Of a stretch of DNA of 64,000 nt, positions 24,504 to 32,521 are shown in pieces. How positions within the stretch are numbered: the stretch's first letter is position 1; every line of letters begins with the position of its first letter. A program made the translations under genes and the position numbers. The stretch comes from Anaerolineaceae bacterium (GTDB lineage Bacteria; Chloroflexota; Anaerolineae; Anaerolineales; Anaerolineaceae), in assembly GCA_030653365.1 (NCBI GenBank), contig JAURZL010000007.1, positions 622,011 through 686,010 on the forward strand, in the 5' to 3' direction. The notes beneath the pieces are model-generated. The model was not told the DNA's origin and ran no database searches. It saw only the letters and a program-made list of their open reading frames with translations.

Positions 24504-25217
24504 TTATAATCTTTTATAATCCACAAACCTGTATCCAACACCTCTTTCAGTTAATAAATAGATTGGATTGGATGGATCTTTCTCAATTTTTTGTCGAAGA
24601 TAATTAATATACAATCTGACATAATGAGGCTCATCTCGGTATTCATACCCCCAAACCCGAGATAATATCTGATCATATGTTAGAACCCAACCTGCATTCT
24701 TCACTAAATGGTAAAGCAACCTGTATTCTGTAGGTCTTAATTTGACAATTTCACCATTTAACCAAATCTCTCTTTTCGAAAAATCTAATTTAAGATGTTC
24801 GTCAACTGTAATAATGTCAGGAGATTCCGTAGAACTTGATTCTACACGGCGTAAAACAGCTCTAACCCTACTTACTAACTCTCTAGGACTGAAAGGTTTC
24901 GTTACATAATCATCAGCACCCAGCTCCAGTCCTCTTACACGATCATCTTCTTCCCCTTTAGCTGTTAACATGATTACAGGGACGTTACTAATTTCGCGCA
25001 ACATGCTTAAAACCTCAAATCCATCTATATCAGGCATCATTACATCTAATAAAACCAGGTCTGGCAAAGAATCTCTATATTGTTGCAAAGCCTGCATTCC
25101 TCGATAAGCTTCTACAACCCGGAATCCATCATGTTCTAAATTCAATCTTATGAATCGAGCCATTCTTTCTTCGTCATCAACTACTAATATCGTTTTATTT
25201 TTTAATAAATCTTCCAT
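24504..25217 (-). CDS. OmpR/PhoB-family response regulator
   Basis: 237 residues. The receiver domain (about 8-120) has the acidic pair Asp14-Asp15, phospho-acceptor Asp58 in LVLLDVMMPD, Thr in MLTAKG and Lys in VTKPFSPRE. The C-terminal winged helix has LRPTEYRLLYHLVKNAGWVLTYDQIL and ends RGVGYRFV, typical of OmpR/PhoB. No HisKA-type kinase is near, so it is an orphan here; the kinase at 10 kb belongs to a different pairing class. It follows the 79-residue gene by 2 bp and is the last gene of the run from 30264 down, so it may be part of the Ser/Thr phosphorylation cluster. Confidence 0.95.
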   Translation of the reverse strand: MEDLLKNKTILVVDDEERMARFIRLNLEHDGFRVVEAYRGMQALQQYRDSLPDLVLLDVMMPDIDGFEVLSMLREISNVPVIMLTAKGEEDDRVRGLELGADDYVTKPFSPRELVSRVRAVLRRVESSSTESPDIITVDEHLKLDFSKREIWLNGEIVKLRPTEYRLLYHLVKNAGWVLTYDQILSRVWGYEYRDEPHYVRLYINYLRQKIEKDPSNPIYLLTERGVGYRFVDYKRL

Positions 25218-25219
25218 GG

Positions 25220-25459
25220 TTATTCTCTAACGAAGGAGATAATCTCATCTTCTTTAACATCTTGAATCAATTCAATAAATGTTATTCGATGAAATGGCCA
25301 GATAACCTGAGTAACATTTGGTTCTAAATATTGAACATCTTTGCCATCTTTTCTTCTTGGGTTTTTAACTAGAATATTTTGATCCTCAGGTTTTGGTATT
25401 TCGTCAACTTCTCCCATTACAGGGTCTTCATTATTAATATGAACAATTACAGTGATCAT
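25220..25459 (-). CDS. Small conserved-looking protein of unknown function
   Basis: 79 residues with no known domain recognised. It is acidic and predicted mixed alpha/beta, starting with a beta strand MITVIVHINNE, then a Pro-rich turn and a C-terminal IELIQDVKEDEIISFVRE. AGGAAA precedes the ATG. It is packed between the FHA gene (9 bp) and the response regulator (2 bp), so it is almost certainly translated as part of that operon. It might be a small adaptor or the target of the kinase/FHA system; that is speculation. Confidence 0.75.
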   Translation of the reverse strand: MITVIVHINNEDPVMGEVDEIPKPEDQNILVKNPRRKDGKDVQYLEPNVTQVIWPFHRITFIELIQDVKEDEIISFVRE

Positions 25460-25468
25460 TTTTATTTC

Positions 25469-25996
25469 CTACTTAATTAATATTTGAATTCTTAATTTTC
25501 CTAATGCAATCTGATCATTATGGGTAATAGGATAATCCACGTGTGGCACAATTTTTTGTCCATTAACCCTTGTGCCATTCGATGAGCCAAGGTCCATAAC
25601 GGCTACACGATTTTTGTTAGTTTTAAGGGCAGCATGCAAACGAGACACTCCTTGTGCATAAGCGTCAAAGGGAGATAAATCTACATCGGGTAAAATTGGC
25701 TGACCTTCAGCAACTCTACCCAATGTATATTCATTTCTGCCAGCTAATTGTAATGTTTGTTTTGCGTCGATTAAATAAAGGGCTAAGTCTGCAACGATTA
25801 CCTGGTTACTTAGAATATCTTCAGTAGTTTCATTATCATAGTTTACTTCCTCCCCATTTTCTTCTAAATAATCAGAATTTGATTTTTTAATCGACTGCGT
25901 AGTTAAATAATCCAGAGAGATTAATCTGGCACCACATTCACTACAAAAAAGGGCACCTGGTAATTCTTTATTGTGACAACTCGGGCAAACAATCAT
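25469..25996 (-). CDS. Zinc-ribbon FHA-domain protein
   Basis: Phosphothreonine-binding adaptor. A four-Cys zinc ribbon opens the protein (Cys4, Cys7, Cys18, Cys21), then an acidic linker to about residue 70, then an FHA domain (about 85-160) with GR at 93-94, SRLH at 118-121 and SSNGT at 138-142, the residues that contact phospho-Thr. No TM segment, so cytoplasmic. The start overlaps the stop of the J-domain/vWA gene. With kinase and PP2C in the same operon it likely reads phosphorylation by the kinase; the zinc ribbon may recruit another partner. Confidence 0.93.
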   Translation of the reverse strand: MIVCPSCHNKELPGALFCSECGARLISLDYLTTQSIKKSNSDYLEENGEEVNYDNETTEDILSNQVIVADLALYLIDAKQTLQLAGRNEYTLGRVAEGQPILPDVDLSPFDAYAQGVSRLHAALKTNKNRVAVMDLGSSNGTRVNGQKIVPHVDYPITHNDQIALGKLRIQILIK

Positions 25997-27462
25997 TAAT
26001 CCTCCTGTGATGGTGCTGGCAACATTAACAAAGATCTTGTTCCATATTTAATTTTTTTCTTTCCTAATTCCGAATAATTTTCTGAATCCTGAAGGTTTTC
26101 AACTTCCTTTAAAACAGTTTTTGCGAGATCTCTGTTTCCTTTGGAAATCAAATGAGTTGCTAAGTGGTGTAATCGCCTAGTCGCATTATCAAATTTTCCA
26201 TTTTGGACATCTTCTCTAGCTTTTTCCTGAAGACGATATAAAGATAAACTCGATAAGGCGTTTATAATAATTGGAGGAATTTTTTCTTTTTCAGTTTGAG
26301 CTAAAACGGGTCTACTAAAATCATAATTCAATCGATTCATAATAATATTATTCGAAGGTGTTTCAACTTTTATTGATCCATGAGATAATCTAAGTTCTGT
26401 CATTTCGGCCGGTAATTCATCGATAATAAATTCAAAAATCACTCTTATATGTTTTCCTGAGTACAAACTTCCCAAGTTTATTTCTGGAGAAACTTCCAGA
26501 CGAGATAGATCCGGATGCAAACGAAATATATAATTATTCTTCACCTTTGGGTGTAAATTGAAGGATATTTTTACTGATTTTGAGTAAATTACTCCAAAAG
26601 TGGTTAACTTCTCTTTCAATAAATTATACAGTTCTTGAGATGTTGTTACAAATTGAGTTTCTCCACCAGCAATTTTTGATAAATTATCCAGGAAATCATC
26701 ATTCCAATCCTGACCAACCCCAACAGCTTGAAAGATTATTCCTTCATCATTTGCTTCTCTAATAACTTCTAAACATTGGTCTTCGTCTCCATATGTCTGA
26801 CCATCGGTTATCAAAAACAATAATTTTGCTTGTTGTTCATTTTCTACTTGATTAAGATTTTTTATTCCTTCTTGTAAACCTTTTAATATTTCTGTGGAAC
26901 CAGAGGCATTTATTGTAAGAATTTTTGAAAATTCTTTTCCAATATCCTTTATTTTACAAGGTGGAATAACTGTTTCTGCCCAATCACTAAAACTTACTAA
27001 GGATACTATATCGTCATCCTTCAACAATTTAATTAGGTTTAATATTTCTAATTTCAGATTATTCAGCATATCTCCTTGCATTGAAGTAGATCGATCTAAA
27101 ACAATGCAAAGATTCAACGTCGGTAATTCATAATCATTTATGTCTCTGGTAGAAAAAATATCCAGCAGCAAATAAAATAATTGTTGTTCAGGCAATAATG
27201 GTAATACAGATCTGCTGTAGTACGCATTGATCTGCAATGACTCGTCTTTTTTTACAACATTCTTAAATAATGAATCATAATTTTTTCTGGTTTCCTCATT
27301 TATGAGCGTTTCATAAGCATTTTGAATTTGAATAAAATGATCATTCTTTTGTAAAGTTTTAGTCACATCTGGGTGAAATTTTTTGGCAGAATCAAAATAA
27401 GCTTTTCGTATTTCTTCCTGGGTTGCATCAAAAGATATTTTTAAAAGATTATAATAATTCAT
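25996..27462 (-). CDS. J-domain / von Willebrand factor A fusion protein
   Basis: 488 residues. Residues 2-66 are a J-domain with the HPD motif at 30-32, which in DnaJ proteins stimulates Hsp70 ATPase. A vWA domain follows (about 115-290) with a full MIDAS: D-x-S-x-S at 123-127 (DRSTS), a Thr/Ser-containing loop in NASGSTEI and ITDGQT. After this come a beta-rich segment (300-375) and a helical C-terminus. No signal peptide, so intracellular. It is flanked by PP2C and FHA genes. TerY-type vWA proteins occur with PP2C and kinase in known triads, but the J-domain fusion is unusual. No dnaK is nearby. Confidence 0.92.
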   Translation of the reverse strand: MNYYNLLKISFDATQEEIRKAYFDSAKKFHPDVTKTLQKNDHFIQIQNAYETLINEETRKNYDSLFKNVVKKDESLQINAYYSRSVLPLLPEQQLFYLLLDIFSTRDINDYELPTLNLCIVLDRSTSMQGDMLNNLKLEILNLIKLLKDDDIVSLVSFSDWAETVIPPCKIKDIGKEFSKILTINASGSTEILKGLQEGIKNLNQVENEQQAKLLFLITDGQTYGDEDQCLEVIREANDEGIIFQAVGVGQDWNDDFLDNLSKIAGGETQFVTTSQELYNLLKEKLTTFGVIYSKSVKISFNLHPKVKNNYIFRLHPDLSRLEVSPEINLGSLYSGKHIRVIFEFIIDELPAEMTELRLSHGSIKVETPSNNIIMNRLNYDFSRPVLAQTEKEKIPPIIINALSSLSLYRLQEKAREDVQNGKFDNATRRLHHLATHLISKGNRDLAKTVLKEVENLQDSENYSELGKKKIKYGTRSLLMLPAPSQED

Positions 27463-27466
27463 GTTT

Positions 27467-28369
27467 TTAGAAAATCTTAATTAAAATAACACTTATATTA
27501 TCCGGCCCACCGGCTTTATTTGCTGATTCAACCATTTTCGAACAAGCGATTGATGGTGATTCTGAATTTGTGGCTAACCTGAACAACTCATCATCTCCAA
27601 CAGAACCCCATAATCCATCACTACAAATCAAGATATATCCAGGTTTGGGTATAGTCAAACTCATTAAATCAGGTCGAAATGGTTCAGACTGCCCTAATGC
27701 ACGATACAACACATTCTTATTTGGATGCGTTTTAGCTTCATTTTCTGTTATTTGACCGAGATCAACAAGCCTTCTAACCAAAGAATGGTCATTAGTTTTA
27801 GTTTCGATTCTTCCATCAGGATATAAAAAGTACAATCTAGTATCACCAACATGACCAATAGTTATTTGATCCCCAATAATCAATCCTGCAGTGATGGTAG
27901 TTCCCCCACCTGGAGCTTTTTGCATCACAGCATTTTGGGCTTTTTTAATGCTTTGTTCAATAATTTCCTGAATACTTTCACTCGGTGCCTCGGAAGAACT
28001 TGCGCTAAACAATGGAAAATACAGCTTCTTAATTATATTTTCTCCTACTATTTTTGAAGCTACACTACTTGCTACTTCCCCAAATTCATGACCACCCATT
28101 CCATCTGCTACAACAAATATCCCAAAATTTACATCTTTTACGCTATTGGCAAAATTAGAACTAAAATAAAATAATGCATCTTCATTATGGTCTCGTTGCC
28201 TTCCAACCGACTGCCCTACTCCAACCAATAATTGTGAAGGTGAAACAACTGGATCTTCTTTTGTCACAATTGTTAATTGTTCTACCGATAACGGTGCAGT
28301 TTCGACGTTAACATTTACTTTTTTTGATTTTCTTCCAAATAATTTCTCAAAAATTTCCACTTTTATCAC
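27467..28369 (-). CDS. PP2C-type Ser/Thr protein phosphatase
   Basis: Mn/Mg-dependent phosphatase expected to reverse the neighbouring kinases. Motifs: RDHNEDA (60-65), VADGMGGHEFGE (Asp89-Gly90 metal site), GGTTITAGLI, GHVGDTRLYF, CSDGLWGSV and GPDNISVI. Residues 1-45 form a basic, flexible N-terminal extension. No TM helix. The first start is GTG 28369; GTG 28360, with AAAGGTG before it, is an equally good alternative. It sits between kinase and vWA genes in one operon, and in gene order takes the place of Bacillus prpC. Confidence 0.95.
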   Translation of the reverse strand: MIKVEIFEKLFGRKSKKVNVNVETAPLSVEQLTIVTKEDPVVSPSQLLVGVGQSVGRQRDHNEDALFYFSSNFANSVKDVNFGIFVVADGMGGHEFGEVASSVASKIVGENIIKKLYFPLFSASSSEAPSESIQEIIEQSIKKAQNAVMQKAPGGGTTITAGLIIGDQITIGHVGDTRLYFLYPDGRIETKTNDHSLVRRLVDLGQITENEAKTHPNKNVLYRALGQSEPFRPDLMSLTIPKPGYILICSDGLWGSVGDDELFRLATNSESPSIACSKMVESANKAGGPDNISVILIKIF

Positions 28370-28386
28370 CTTTCAAGAAATATAAT

Positions 28387-30264
28387 TTATGCGTAAAAAG
28401 CATAAATTATATGGTCACTCGATCCAATGTATAAAATTTCATTTGCAATCACAGGAGAACCGCTAATTACATCATCTGTCTTAAATTTCCATCTTTCTTG
28501 TCCATTTTTTAGATCCAGACTATACAACATACCATCTGCTGACCCACAATAAACAGAATTATTATGGATAACAGGAGAACCGCTTACTTGGTGTTCGGTT
28601 TTATATCGCCAAATTTCTCTTGCATTTCCTGCTTCCAAACAATAAATATGATTATCTGCTGATCCAAACACTATGTAATTTTCTGATTTACATGGTGATG
28701 ATATTGACCCTTTTTCCATCCTGAAACGCCAAACAACCCATCCAGATTTTGCATCAAGTGCATAAAAAGTTGAATCTAGAGAAGCAAAAAATACCAATCC
28801 ATTATCAACAATAGGCGAAGATGTTATCGCTTTTTTTGTTTTAAATCTCCATTTAATTTGACCTGTAAAATCGATACAAAAAAATTCACCATATTCATTT
28901 CCAAAAAACACATTATCTTTTGTTATAAATGGTGTAGTCCTAACTGCGGAGCCCGAATCAATTCTCCAAGTCAATCGATTTGATATCAGGTTTACAGCGT
29001 ATAAATATCCATCATCGGATCCAAAAAAGATATGCCCTTCAGCTATCTTAACTGAACTACGTATTGGCCCATCCGCCTGAAAAGACCAAGATTCTTTTCC
29101 AGTCCGGGTAGAAATACTATAAATCTTTTTATCCTCAGATCCAAAAAATACATTGTTATCGTATATTGTAGGCTTTCCAACAATTCCACCTAAAGCAGGA
29201 AACTTCCATATAAACGATCCGTCAGATGCATCTAAAACATAAAGATTGTTATCATAAGAACCACTATAGATTTTCCCATTATCATATGTTACAGATCCTC
29301 TGATTTCATCTTCACACTTAAATGTCCACAAAGGTTTAATGATTTGTGTATCATTCTTCTTTGTAATTGGAATCCGGGATAAAGCACCAGTTTTTTTTGC
29401 AACTGATAATAATGCATTTTTAAAATCAGTAATATTTTGATATCGATCTTCAGCATTATATTGGAGAGATAGGTTGATAACAATTTCCAGGTCATTTGAA
29501 ACTCTTGGATTGATTGAGCGAATCTTCCTTTCAGAGAAAGAAAAAGGCGCTTCTATTCGTGGATCCCGATTCGTTAATAAATGATGCAAGGTTGCCCCAA
29601 GGGCATATACATCCGCAACAGGTGTAGCTTCACCGCGATATTGTTCTGGTGGTGAATAACCCTCTGTTCCGATCATTGTTCCTTTTTGACCAGTTTTGAA
29701 ATTTTTTGCAATTCCAAAATCAACCAGAATGACTCTTCCTTGCTGATTGATCATAACATTGCTTGGTTTCATATCTCTAAAAATTATTGGTTCTGGTTTG
29801 TAAGAATGTAGATATTCCAGAACATCGCACAATTCGATTGCCCACGCGATTACATTGTCTTCCAGAATGGGGTCATTGTTTTCAGAAAGCAAAGCTTCCA
29901 AATCTTTTCCATGAATATATTCCAAAACAAGATAAGATTTTTCATCAACTGAGAAAAAATCAAATATTTGAGGAATCGAAACATGATTTAGGGTAACTAA
30001 AATGTTCGCTTCACGTTCGAAGTTTTGAATAATTGTCTTTCTCACCAAAGGATCCGGGGCGTTATTAATCATTTCCTTGACCGCAACCAATTTAATTACT
30101 TTGGGAAAATGAAGATCCCGTGCTCGATAAACAGAACCCATACCACCAATTCCAATCACATCCTGGATTTGGTAGCGGTCAAATAATATAACACCTGTTT
30201 CCAATTGCTTTACAGCATTTGAAGATTGTGAATTAAAACTGGAAGTGATACGTCGAGTTTCCAG
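28387..30264 (-). CDS. Ser/Thr protein kinase with C-terminal eight-repeat PQQ-like propeller
   Basis: Eukaryotic-like kinase followed by a sensor propeller. From the TTG at 30204 (605 residues): Gly-rich loop GIGGMGSVYRA, Lys43, catalytic loop FRDMKPSN (142-149, Phe replacing His of HRD), DFG 162-164, and SPPEQYRG. Residues 293-605 are eight consecutive repeats of about 40 residues, each starting W-x-[FYI] and containing FxGSxDxxxYxLD, so an eight-bladed PQQ-type propeller. No TM helix separates the parts, hence a cytoplasmic propeller. The frame extends upstream to a CTG at 30264, four bases after AGGAGGG, which I prefer as the start. Confidence 0.92.
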   Translation of the reverse strand: METRRITSSFNSQSSNAVKQLETGVILFDRYQIQDVIGIGGMGSVYRARDLHFPKVIKLVAVKEMINNAPDPLVRKTIIQNFEREANILVTLNHVSIPQIFDFFSVDEKSYLVLEYIHGKDLEALLSENNDPILEDNVIAWAIELCDVLEYLHSYKPEPIIFRDMKPSNVMINQQGRVILVDFGIAKNFKTGQKGTMIGTEGYSPPEQYRGEATPVADVYALGATLHHLLTNRDPRIEAPFSFSERKIRSINPRVSNDLEIVINLSLQYNAEDRYQNITDFKNALLSVAKKTGALSRIPITKKNDTQIIKPLWTFKCEDEIRGSVTYDNGKIYSGSYDNNLYVLDASDGSFIWKFPALGGIVGKPTIYDNNVFFGSEDKKIYSISTRTGKESWSFQADGPIRSSVKIAEGHIFFGSDDGYLYAVNLISNRLTWRIDSGSAVRTTPFITKDNVFFGNEYGEFFCIDFTGQIKWRFKTKKAITSSPIVDNGLVFFASLDSTFYALDAKSGWVVWRFRMEKGSISSPCKSENYIVFGSADNHIYCLEAGNAREIWRYKTEHQVSGSPVIHNNSVYCGSADGMLYSLDLKNGQERWKFKTDDVISGSPVIANEILYIGSSDHIIYAFYA

Positions 30265-30486: not shown

Positions 30487-30858
30487 CTAAAGATTTTTAT
30501 TATTAGAATTTCGGTTTTTTATGCATTCTTCACAACTGCATAGAGCTCGTAAATACAGCCAGGTATAAATTCCATAATTGTGTCCGTCTTCCCAGTGCAC
30601 GGTTAACCCATAGCTTCCCACCATATCAACTTTTTCTAACCTGGTCAAAGCTGATTCTGGAAGAACTATCTCAAACATACTGCTATCAGGTTCCTGTTTC
30701 ATATTTTCATGTCCACCACGACAAGATGCGCAAGGACATGCTGCGCGTAATAAACCAAAATCGATGTTGGATTTATGTCCATCATTCCAATCGATATATA
30801 TTTTTCTTTCTATTTTGTCTGCTTTTATTTTTATTGGGACTAATTTTTGATCCTGCAT
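30487..30858 (-). CDS. DUF971 domain protein
   Basis: About 123 residues. DUF971 is the N-terminal domain of gamma-butyrobetaine hydroxylase-type proteins and also occurs alone next to iron-sulfur cluster genes; its role is not established. The family signature is clear: IYIDWNDGHKSNIDFGLLRAACPCASCRGG, and GLTVHWEDGHNYGIYTWLYLRALC. Extra Cys pairs (CSCEEC near the C-terminus) could bind metal. The start at ATG 30858 is chosen because AGGGAG lies 5-6 bases before it; the longer frame overlaps the SH3 gene. Confidence 0.88.
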   Translation of the reverse strand: MQDQKLVPIKIKADKIERKIYIDWNDGHKSNIDFGLLRAACPCASCRGGHENMKQEPDSSMFEIVLPESALTRLEKVDMVGSYGLTVHWEDGHNYGIYTWLYLRALCSCEECIKNRNSNNKNL

Positions 30859-30868
30859 AACTCCCTTT

Positions 30869-31333
30869 CTATGGAACAGTAACGATTTGTAAATACTCAT
30901 CAACCGACCAGCCGTTTCTATTCTTATCATATGGGGCTTCTAAATACCACCAAACAAAATCATCTGCTGCTACGGGTCCATCAATGACTTCAAAAACTTC
31001 TGCGTCCAATCCAATTAAATTAACACTGTTACTTCTTCCGGGACCAGATCGTAAGCGTAATCCATCACCAGAAGTTCCAGCAATTTGAACAAAATCACCT
31101 AATTTGAATTTAAAATTACTTGAAGTTATCACCGTACTTTCTGCTGTCGGCGTAGGAACGATCGTCAATCCTATCACAGGTGTGGAACTAGCTGCAGGTA
31201 TGACAGTTATTAATGCAATGGTATCATCTTGAATTTGGTTTTGTGGCAGAAAAATTAAGAATATAAAAATAGTAATCAGAATCACTAAAGTTAAGATGAA
31301 TCCTATAATTAATGGTAACCAGTTTCTTTTCAT
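30869..31333 (-). CDS. Membrane-anchored bacterial SH3 domain protein
   Basis: 154 residues. One N-terminal TM helix (about residues 8-30) anchors the protein with the rest outside. A short Thr/Ser/Pro-rich linker leads to an SH3_3-type domain (about 78-150): DGLRLRSGPGRSNSVNLIGL, then WWYLEAPYDKNRNGWSVDEYL. Such domains often bind cell-wall peptides. It is divergent from the tail-anchored kinase (132 bp between starts) and 10 bp before the DUF971 gene. It might supply the outside-facing sensor that the kinase lacks; that is only suggested by position. Confidence 0.85.
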   Translation of the reverse strand: MKRNWLPLIIGFILTLVILITIFIFLIFLPQNQIQDDTIALITVIPAASSTPVIGLTIVPTPTAESTVITSSNFKFKLGDFVQIAGTSGDGLRLRSGPGRSNSVNLIGLDAEVFEVIDGPVAADDFVWWYLEAPYDKNRNGWSVDEYLQIVTVP

Positions 31334-31443
31334 TGATAATTTAATCCTGTTTTATGGGTTCTTTCTGAGATCACAACACAATTCTTTTCCTTCATAATAC
31401 TCTCAATCATTTTAACCGATTTTTTAAAATGATCTTTTGCCTA

Positions 31444-31452
31444 TGATATAAT
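31444..31452 (+). promoter_or_regulatory. Extended -10 promoter of the tail-anchored kinase
   Basis: TG-A-TATAAT at 31444-31452. The predicted start point near 31459 leaves only about seven bases before the ATG at 31466, with no Shine-Dalgarno, so the mRNA may be nearly leaderless. The -35 position (about 31424) has only TTAAAA. Confidence 0.65.
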
Positions 31453-31465
31453 CGCATCAAGTAAA

Positions 31466-32521
31466 ATGAGCGAAAATCTTAATCCAGCTATACCAATTCT
31501 TGCAAATAGATATCAGTTACTCCAGACATTGGGTTCTGGTGGAATGGCGGTTGTCTACCGCGCAAAAGATTTAACATTAGAGAGATATGTTGCTGTTAAG
31601 ATTTTGCGCCCAGATTTTTCGAAGGATGATGGATTCCGAAAACGGTTTCATCAGGAAGCGAAGGCTGTCGCTAATCTCTCTCATCCAAACATTGTAACTG
31701 TTCATGATTTTGGTTTGGATGGTGAACGATTATTCATCATTATGGAATATGTGCCTGGTGTAAATTTAAAAGCAATGATCCGGGAACTACAAGTAATTCC
31801 AATTGATAAAGCATTAGATTTAATAATTCAAGCATCACAAGGGATTGGATATGCCCACAGAGCTGGTCTAATTCATTGTGATATTAAACCACACAATATG
31901 TTGGTAACACCTGACGGAAGACTTAAAGTAACAGATTTTGGTATTGCCAGAGCGTTAACAACAATTCTTCCTGATGAAAAAAATGCTTATGTTTGGGGCT
32001 CGCCACAATATCTATCACCAGAACAAGCAGTGGGCTTATCTCCGTCTCCAGCATCTGATGTATATTCATTAGGGATTGTTTTGTACGAAATGATCACCGG
32101 AAAACTTCCGTTTTATTCCAAAGATGCTTCTGAATTAACAAGAATGCATAAAGAAGTTTTACCAATCTCAACCAGAAATTTTAATCAAGAGATTCCACCT
32201 TCCTTAGATCAGATTATTTTAAAGGTGTTATCAAAAGAACAAACGAGCCGCTACCGAACTGCAGATCAATTTGGCCGTGTACTCAGCAATCTGAGAGAAA
32301 CATTTAAACCAAACAATCAATTTGGGCAAAATCTAAATCATGATATTAATATCCAATATGAAACTGTAAAAGAACAGGTAGAACCGATTAATTCAACAAA
32401 AAAAATAAATGGTTCTTTTGATTGGAAAACTGCTCTATTAGCTTTACTCGCATTTCTGCTTGCAGGGGGTTTGATCCCCTTCTGGTTATTTATATGGTTT
32501 TCCTTAAATTCAAGCAGATAG
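31466..32521 (+). CDS. Tail-anchored Ser/Thr protein kinase (PrkC positional counterpart)
   Basis: 351 residues. Kinase domain about 16-275: GSGGMAVVYRAKD, Lys45, catalytic loop HCDIKPHN (137-144, Cys replacing Arg of HRD), DFG 157-159, SPQYLSPEQA and SDVYSLGIVLYEM. A linker of about 45 residues leads to one C-terminal TM helix (about 322-347) that ends the protein. No PASTA or other outside domain, unlike PrkC/PknB. It is followed at 7 bp by rpe, matching the Bacillus prkC-cpgA-rpe region. The missing HRD Arg suggests activation without classical activation-loop control. Confidence 0.93.
   Translation: MSENLNPAIPILANRYQLLQTLGSGGMAVVYRAKDLTLERYVAVKILRPDFSKDDGFRKRFHQEAKAVANLSHPNIVTVHDFGLDGERLFIIMEYVPGVNLKAMIRELQVIPIDKALDLIIQASQGIGYAHRAGLIHCDIKPHNMLVTPDGRLKVTDFGIARALTTILPDEKNAYVWGSPQYLSPEQAVGLSPSPASDVYSLGIVLYEMITGKLPFYSKDASELTRMHKEVLPISTRNFNQEIPPSLDQIILKVLSKEQTSRYRTADQFGRVLSNLRETFKPNNQFGQNLNHDINIQYETVKEQVEPINSTKKINGSFDWKTALLALLAFLLAGGLIPFWLFIWFSLNSSR

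Follow-up and report, generated by a model that had tools for sequence, protein, structure and literature searches.

What a bacterium does with a protein kinase, a phosphatase, a von Willebrand factor A (vWA) protein and a forkhead-associated (FHA) protein encoded side by side is the question raised by an operon in the genome of an Anaerolineaceae bacterium (Chloroflexota; GenBank assembly GCA_030653365.1). The operon lies in a 64,000-nucleotide stretch of contig JAURZL010000007.1 (positions 622,011 to 686,010), hereafter the window, whose numbering is used throughout, and consists of six open reading frames (ORFs), all open, on the reverse strand from 30264 down to 24504. They encode a kinase fused to a beta-propeller (kinase-propeller), a PP2C phosphatase, a vWA protein with an N-terminal J-domain (J-vWA), a zinc-ribbon-FHA protein, a small protein of 79 residues (SP79) and an OmpR-family response regulator. 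We lean towards reading the operon as a self-contained phosphorylation switch of the ArnA/ArnB type, in which the kinase would phosphorylate a threonine (T475) in the vWA protein, the FHA protein would bind it and PP2C would reverse the reaction.

The initial annotation, made from the letters alone, had described these tightly packed reverse genes as a Ser/Thr phospho-signalling operon, and ORFs, spacing, Pfam domains and conserved gene order bear this out. Matches above Pfam cut-offs were obtained for Pkinase, a PQQ/BamB-type propeller, PP2C, DnaJ, VWA, FHA, Response_reg and Trans_reg_C; the zinc ribbon of the FHA protein scored 23.2 bits against a cut-off of 25, its four cysteines being conserved nonetheless. 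The J-vWA and FHA genes overlap in the sequence TAATG, and spacings of 9 nt (FHA-SP79) and 2 nt (SP79-regulator) follow. The regulator, which had been placed within 25220-30264, is present and lies just outside that interval, at 24504-25217.

The operon is real and conserved. After duplicates were collapsed by sequence and two loci without an SP79 call (L251 and L253) were excluded, the order kinase-propeller, PP2C, vWA, zinc-ribbon-FHA, SP79 was found in 108 of 151 distinct SP79 loci, which belong to several classes within a single phylum; of the 128 distinct loci having at least 6 kb upstream, 103 show it. The five families proposed to co-occur do so, in the same order, outside this genome. 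Chance association is excluded because the gene order is conserved in other genomes, and flanking genes differ among loci, which speaks against a mere absence of rearrangement. Among 61 relatives, 49 carry SP79. At E<=0.001, 60 of them match J-vWA, many through a single domain; at E<=1e-50, a threshold chosen after the match list had been viewed, 43 remain, all of which also have SP79, as against 6 of the other 18. The strict order ending in the regulator was seen in 38 of 48 relatives' loci, the others having an extra kinase before SP79 (2), contig-end cuts (4), no vWA and FHA genes (3) or SP79 and regulator only (1). A second set, of loci from named records (80 of 195 relatives, among the matches listed), contained 66 ordered loci, 12 incomplete ones (nearly all at contig ends) and 2 lacking vWA and FHA; 79 of the 80 bear Chloroflexota-type titles. 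The exception, L139, a contig of 3.6 kb from a metagenome-assembled genome titled Bacteroidetes and possibly misbinned, carries vWA, FHA, SP79 and regulator. SP79 was detected in 93 of 301 Chloroflexota genomes, and from these 93 a third set of 40 distant loci was hand-picked across families. The five-gene order was present in 16 of the 40, from the window's class as well as from others; the remainder were reduced (kinase-SP79, FHA-SP79, SP79 alone, other contexts), as at L221 and L230, where kinase-propeller and SP79 are left. Alignments comprised 29 of 128 FHA proteins, 49 of 64 J-vWA proteins and 32 of 80 SP79 loci, each with the window's sequence added, and some residue-conservation counts, including that of the regulator phospho-Asp given below, keep duplicate sequences.

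The distant loci also separate a core from later additions. The J-domain (residues 1-63, 27274-27462, HPD at 30-32) is missing in 13 of 18 vWA proteins of distant loci, which keep the same operon, and in three loci within the window's own order (L074, L091, L105); among distant loci it was found in four of the window's class and in one of another class (L231). The regulator adjoins SP79 in 47 of 48 relatives' loci and in 77 of the 80 named-record loci; among 38 distant loci it does so in just two when judged by coordinates, or three by gene order counting L235. At four loci (L098, L115, L145, L235) the regulator misses the coordinate test though it neighbours SP79 in gene order, likely owing to an ORF extended upstream. 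J-domain and response regulator are therefore lineage additions, both being mostly missing in distant loci, and the core comprises kinase-propeller, PP2C, vWA, zinc-ribbon-FHA and SP79. Nearly all J-vWA proteins keep HPD (H 97/100, P 99/100, D 97/99 aligned), and the regulator phospho-Asp is kept in 130/130. At six loci (L079, L081, L106, L107, L119, L124) a NarL/LuxR-like second regulator follows the OmpR-type one, at the position of the window's thioredoxin gene; ORFs downstream of SP79 were judged by eye in 11 loci, these included.

The fold of the vWA protein (25996-27462) connects the operon with ArnB. Its AlphaFold2 model (predicted local distance difference test score, pLDDT, 88.5; predicted TM-score, pTM, 0.84) places the J-domain at residues 1-63, the vWA domain at 116-290 inside a beta-sandwich (76-104 and 292-387) and a four-helix bundle at 397-478, so that the J-domain is followed by two strands, then by the vWA domain, the rest of the sandwich and finally the four helices. 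This is the layout of ArnB and its paralogue (PMC6509490). The model aligned with ArnB (8s05_A) at Z 30.1 and a root-mean-square deviation of 3.9 A over 371 of 381 residues, and with ArnE/vWA2 (5a8j) at Z 25.4; at sequence level the J-vWA protein reaches ArnB end to end, weakly (E 5.2e-6). The only match in the genome to the Pfam family ArnB_C (PF18677), at 14.2 bits and E 0.157 below the cut-off, coincides with the helix bundle that this gene encodes. Plasmid-borne relatives of the vWA protein in cyanobacteria and Deinococcus adjoin MerR regulators, with no kinase operon, in the three regions examined; on Synechocystis pSYSA (L275:6890-8656) a protein annotated as macro domain, and matching vWA, is encoded next to CRISPR-associated genes.

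The partner protein points the same way. The zinc-ribbon-FHA protein (25469-25996; ribbon cysteines 4, 7, 18 and 21; FHA domain 90-166) is ArnA-like: a profile of 30 such proteins matched ArnA first among 68 PDB sequences at E<=1 (5a8i, E 1e-15, profile positions 3-167) and again second (8s05, E 1.3e-15), other FHA proteins ranking lower, and the single window sequence gave an ArnA match near E 0.04-0.05. The active-site and phospho-binding residues of kinase, PP2C and FHA protein, and those of the vWA metal site, are preserved in all aligned sequences apart from isolated exceptions in the FHA protein. FHA Ser118 and His121 were found in 136/136; kinase Lys43 and Asp144 each in 114/117, the rest being gaps, and Asp162 in every orthologue aligned there; PP2C (27467-28369) Asp176, Asp251 and Asp290, of the metal site, in 118/118. 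The metal ion-dependent adhesion site (MIDAS) of the vWA domain, DxSxS, occupies residues 123-127 (27082-27096).

Over 123 distinct vWA proteins, serines and threonines conserved to at least 97% are S125, S127, T190, T219 and T223 within the vWA domain and T475 (26038-26040) in the C-terminal tail. T475 is invariant (123/123) and is the sole invariant Ser/Thr outside the vWA domain. It sits in a YGTRxL motif within the tail K469-L478 (KxIKYGTRSL, 26029-26058), followed at +1 by Arg in 120/123 or Lys in 3/123 and at +3 by Leu in 121/123; residues past 481 vary freely. FHA domains bind phosphothreonine (pThr) with selectivity at +3, and judged by its motif T475 fits an FHA pThr+3 ligand. In ArnB, phosphopeptides in the C-terminal bundle include ETTRR and EQTR, and ArnB without the bundle is no longer phosphorylated and binds ArnA less well (PMC6509490); the ArnA FHA domain binds the last helix pair of ArnB, its zinc finger docking on unphosphorylated ArnB (PMC12852372).

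From the conserved gene order, the intact active-site and phospho-binding residues, the ArnB-like predicted fold, the ArnA-like profile match and the invariant tail threonine, we infer the reactions, the input and the output of such a switch as follows. The kinase, a soluble enzyme whose propeller may act as its sensor, would phosphorylate T475 in the vWA tail. The zinc-ribbon-FHA protein, loosely docked on the vWA protein beforehand, would then bind pT475, with Leu at +3, to form a tight and possibly oligomeric complex, and PP2C would undo this. Where a J-domain is present, it might let DnaK remodel the complex.

Several observations weigh against this reading. The best structural match of the J-vWA model is a Catenulispora acidiphila vWA protein, a single crystal structure (4fx5, Z 35.5 over 392 residues), above ArnB, and the three-domain ArnB blueprint is described as widespread (YfbK, Sec23/24; PMC12852372). 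In the vWA profile search 8s05_A took fourth place, in the company of unrelated vWA proteins, and its match was confined to the vWA domain. ArnB_C scored 14.2 bits against a cut-off of 26.3 on the J-vWA protein and matched at E<=1 in 2 of 50 vWA members (best E 0.014), so that, while fold and partner agree with ArnA-ArnB, the protein falls outside the family as Pfam defines it. ArnB has several redundant phosphosites whereas a single threonine is proposed here, and the phosphatase is PP2C here and PP2A in Sulfolobus. T475 may be conserved for structural reasons. A paralogue control for the tail motif, with 19 vWA ORFs in 15 stretches, was suggestive, not clean: all four vWA ORFs of one locus (L260) end in T-x-x-[LV] in basic surroundings, two with [YF]xT[RK], and among the 15 others T-x-x-[LIV] occurred in two (L265, cut by a masked base, and L274) and [YF]xT[RK] in one (L261). 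The L260 locus (G015:C251:14000-33500) is itself a larger phospho-signalling cluster, with kinases (one of them carrying a beta-helix domain), four vWA proteins, zinc-ribbon-FHA proteins, an FHA-ABC transporter and PP2Cs.

SP79 (25220-25459) is the remaining core component. The window protein gave no match in Pfam (E 0.1), NCBIfam or PADLOC, a single chance-level match among PDB sequences (E 0.085) and none in a plasmid collection at E 0.01; across the Chloroflexota genomes and the plasmid collection searched, it is a Chloroflexota-wide protein. Over 42 sequences mean column identity is 65%, H7, P34 and R78 are invariant in addition to the start Met, and no column holds a near-invariant Ser/Thr; SP79 is therefore unlikely to be a Ser/Thr substrate. 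Its model (pLDDT 86.3) shows five strands with a short 3-10 turn before the last, a predicted Sm-like or SH3-like small barrel, and the top PDB fold matches were Sm/LSm proteins or chains from spliceosomal complexes, in which one would expect subunits of this kind (Foldseek best E 8.9e-3, TM 0.62; VIA Z up to 7.1, where a Z below 8 may, according to the tool, reflect a common arrangement). Against this likeness stand the lack of a sequence match (the 12 Pfam families reached by any of the 42 members at E<=1 include neither LSM nor Hfq) and of an N-terminal helix, and a conserved NPRxRDGKD loop instead of Sm motifs; the model makes an Sm-like fold a lead. Hfq itself was found in 7 of 301 Chloroflexota genomes (1 of 216 good ones), with no match in this genome at E<=1.

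Two loci pair SP79 with just the kinase; where the vWA and FHA genes have gone it stays beside kinase and PP2C, and in other loci it accompanies FHA alone. Such retention with varying operon parts is consistent with a partner or output that they share. SP79 is also seen on its own or flanked by DprA- and TopA-like genes (names from our own sequence reading), and divergent relatives outside the kinase operon (L243:8864-9166, L248:8980-9282) lie directly upstream of a topoisomerase-I-like gene. That SP79 is the output of the switch may hold, and is the boldest and least certain part of the reading. A version in which SP79 is a new bacterial Sm-like output, an RNA- (or DNA-) binding ring captured and released by the phospho-controlled vWA-FHA complex, linking Ser/Thr phosphorylation to nucleic-acid regulation in the Hfq-poor Chloroflexota, strikes us as doubtful.

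Other explanations were weighed against the switch. The genes might form a general Ser/Thr kinase/PP2C/FHA housekeeping module, such as PknB-PstP-FhaA/B of Actinobacteria, whose kinase acts on many proteins with the vWA protein as one client or scaffold. The PP2C approaches the Stp1 equivalog, at 213.1 bits against a cut-off of 230, PknB and AfsK models match the kinase at sub-threshold scores, SP79 retains kinase and PP2C as neighbours at L071, L080 and L086 in the absence of vWA and FHA, and the genome holds 10 FHA matches. We nevertheless hold this to be rather unlikely: vWA and FHA genes accompany those for kinase and PP2C in a large majority of sufficiently long loci, and neither a PASTA domain nor a membrane segment was seen in the kinase. 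No clear membrane segment was found in any operon product (19-residue hydropathy windows, highest mean 1.29). A different view takes SP79 and the response regulator, a small adaptor with a transcription factor, as the real core and the kinase operon as one of several inputs. The near-constant adjacency of the two among relatives, the conserved phospho-Asp and the varied contexts of SP79 speak for it; yet distant loci rarely keep the regulator, as against 16 of 40 with the five-gene operon, and we regard this view as unlikely.

The initial annotation had further suggested that protein-folding state is coupled to phosphorylation. In such a chaperone-linked quality control the vWA protein would read an unfolded client or the DnaK state and pass it to kinase and FHA protein; the conserved HPD and two full-length HSP70 genes in the genome are consistent with it. 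The absence of the J-domain from most distant vWA proteins with the same operon, and from three loci of the window's own order, counts against it as a core function, and we consider it very unlikely. A TerY-P-type stress module (vWA-PP2C-kinase), to which the operon had also been linked, is highly improbable. The link holds for gene content, the same three classes sharing an operon, and the vWA profile reaches the TerY proteins of plasmid R478 (38.5, 34.3 and 30.6 bits). It fails on TerY_C, TerD and TerY architecture, and membership, tested against R478, was rejected. TerY_C (PF15616), detected in R478 TerY, was absent from the J-vWA scan and from the top families of 50 aligned relatives; a genome search for it was also empty, but control genomes were equally silent, making the direct scan of the vWA protein the better test. 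TerD (PF02342) had no match in this genome, 2 of 14 control genomes being positive, which for TerD agrees with the earlier remark that no Ter genes are nearby. TerY proteins (212-346 aa) lack sandwich and bundle, and the kinase and PP2C profiles miss the R478 kinase and PP2C at E<=10 (PP2C blastp E 1.6e-4 over 60 residues). Anti-phage defence was likewise set aside, PADLOC matching only generic kinase, phosphatase and receiver domains.

The kinase-propeller gene extends over 28387-30204 from a TTG (605 aa) or to 30264 from a CTG (about 625 aa). The CTG is preceded by AGGAGG, and translation from it opens LETRRITSSF, a stretch present in 32 of 125 kinase orthologues with CTG (22), TTG (4), GTG (3), ATG (1) or CTA (2) at the corresponding codon; the gene therefore probably begins at the CTG (30262-30264). 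In one genome (G001, L062) the kinase-propeller ORF is broken in two, by a frameshift or an assembly error. A promoter/terminator scan of the region was close to shuffled expectation (35 vs 31.2; 5 vs 3.3) and was not used. Upstream of the operon (30487-32521) lie a GBBH-like gene, a membrane-protein gene with an SH3-like stretch (by our own reading) and a second Ser/Thr kinase gene, which sit downstream of the operon in several other genomes (e.g. L087, L094, L102).

Known systems share parts of this arrangement. TerY-P of the R478 ter region has adjacent vWA, PP2C and kinase genes, with a short vWA, a different kinase and no FHA protein, and TerY_C and TerD are absent here. Kinase, PP2C, FHA and vWA domain also make up the PpkA-PppA-Fha1 threonine phosphorylation pathway of type VI secretion, which was rejected as a match since the FHA protein scored 21.5 bits against the TagH (TIGR03354) cut-off of 120.25. 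In PpkA the vWA domain is fused to the kinase (PMC1262709), whereas here it is encoded by a separate gene. GAP1-N2 systems combine kinase, PP2C and standalone vWA, with DnaJ fusions in the wider family of systems; they are reported as restricted to actinobacteria with GAP1-N2 GTPases (PMC7159879), and carry the zinc ribbon on the kinase rather than on the FHA protein. Kinase-propellers are already in print (PMC1262709), and AfsK of Streptomyces (NCBIfam NF053615) likewise joins a kinase to a PQQ propeller, the window kinase scoring 208.7 bits, far short of the 1300 set for the equivalog.

The closest known system is ArnA-ArnB of the archaeon Sulfolobus acidocaldarius, with ArnC/ArnD kinases and PP2A, which the initial annotation missed, as it did the fold of the 79-residue protein. 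The archaeal module regulates archaellum expression. There, ArnC phosphorylates the C-terminal helix bundle of ArnB, the ArnA FHA domain binds at that place, the zinc finger of ArnA contacts ArnB in its unphosphorylated form, and the complex is taken apart by a phosphatase (PMC6509490, PMC12852372, PMC7472852). Common to both are a vWA protein split into beta-sandwich and C-terminal helix bundle, a zinc-ribbon-FHA partner and a kinase/phosphatase pair; threonine in the bundle is a phosphosite in ArnB and a predicted one here. The operon differs in being bacterial, in holding a dedicated kinase and phosphatase, in adding SP79 and (in one class) a J-domain, and in its sub-cut-off ArnB_C match. 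If the reading is true, bacteria possess, across a phylum, the FHA-vWA phospho-switch familiar from motility and DNA-damage control in Sulfolobus, here combined with a dedicated kinase and phosphatase and one predicted phosphosite, so that the whole cycle could be tested with five purified proteins; a conserved small protein without a Pfam match would acquire both a function and a predicted fold, in a phylum in which few genomes encode Hfq. No published description of the five-gene module was found in the open-access literature, in keeping with the earlier suggestion of an undescribed system. Kinase-PP2C-vWA triads, kinase-propellers and the ArnB blueprint were already known; new here is a bacterial ArnAB-like switch, as we read it, with its own kinase, phosphatase and small protein.

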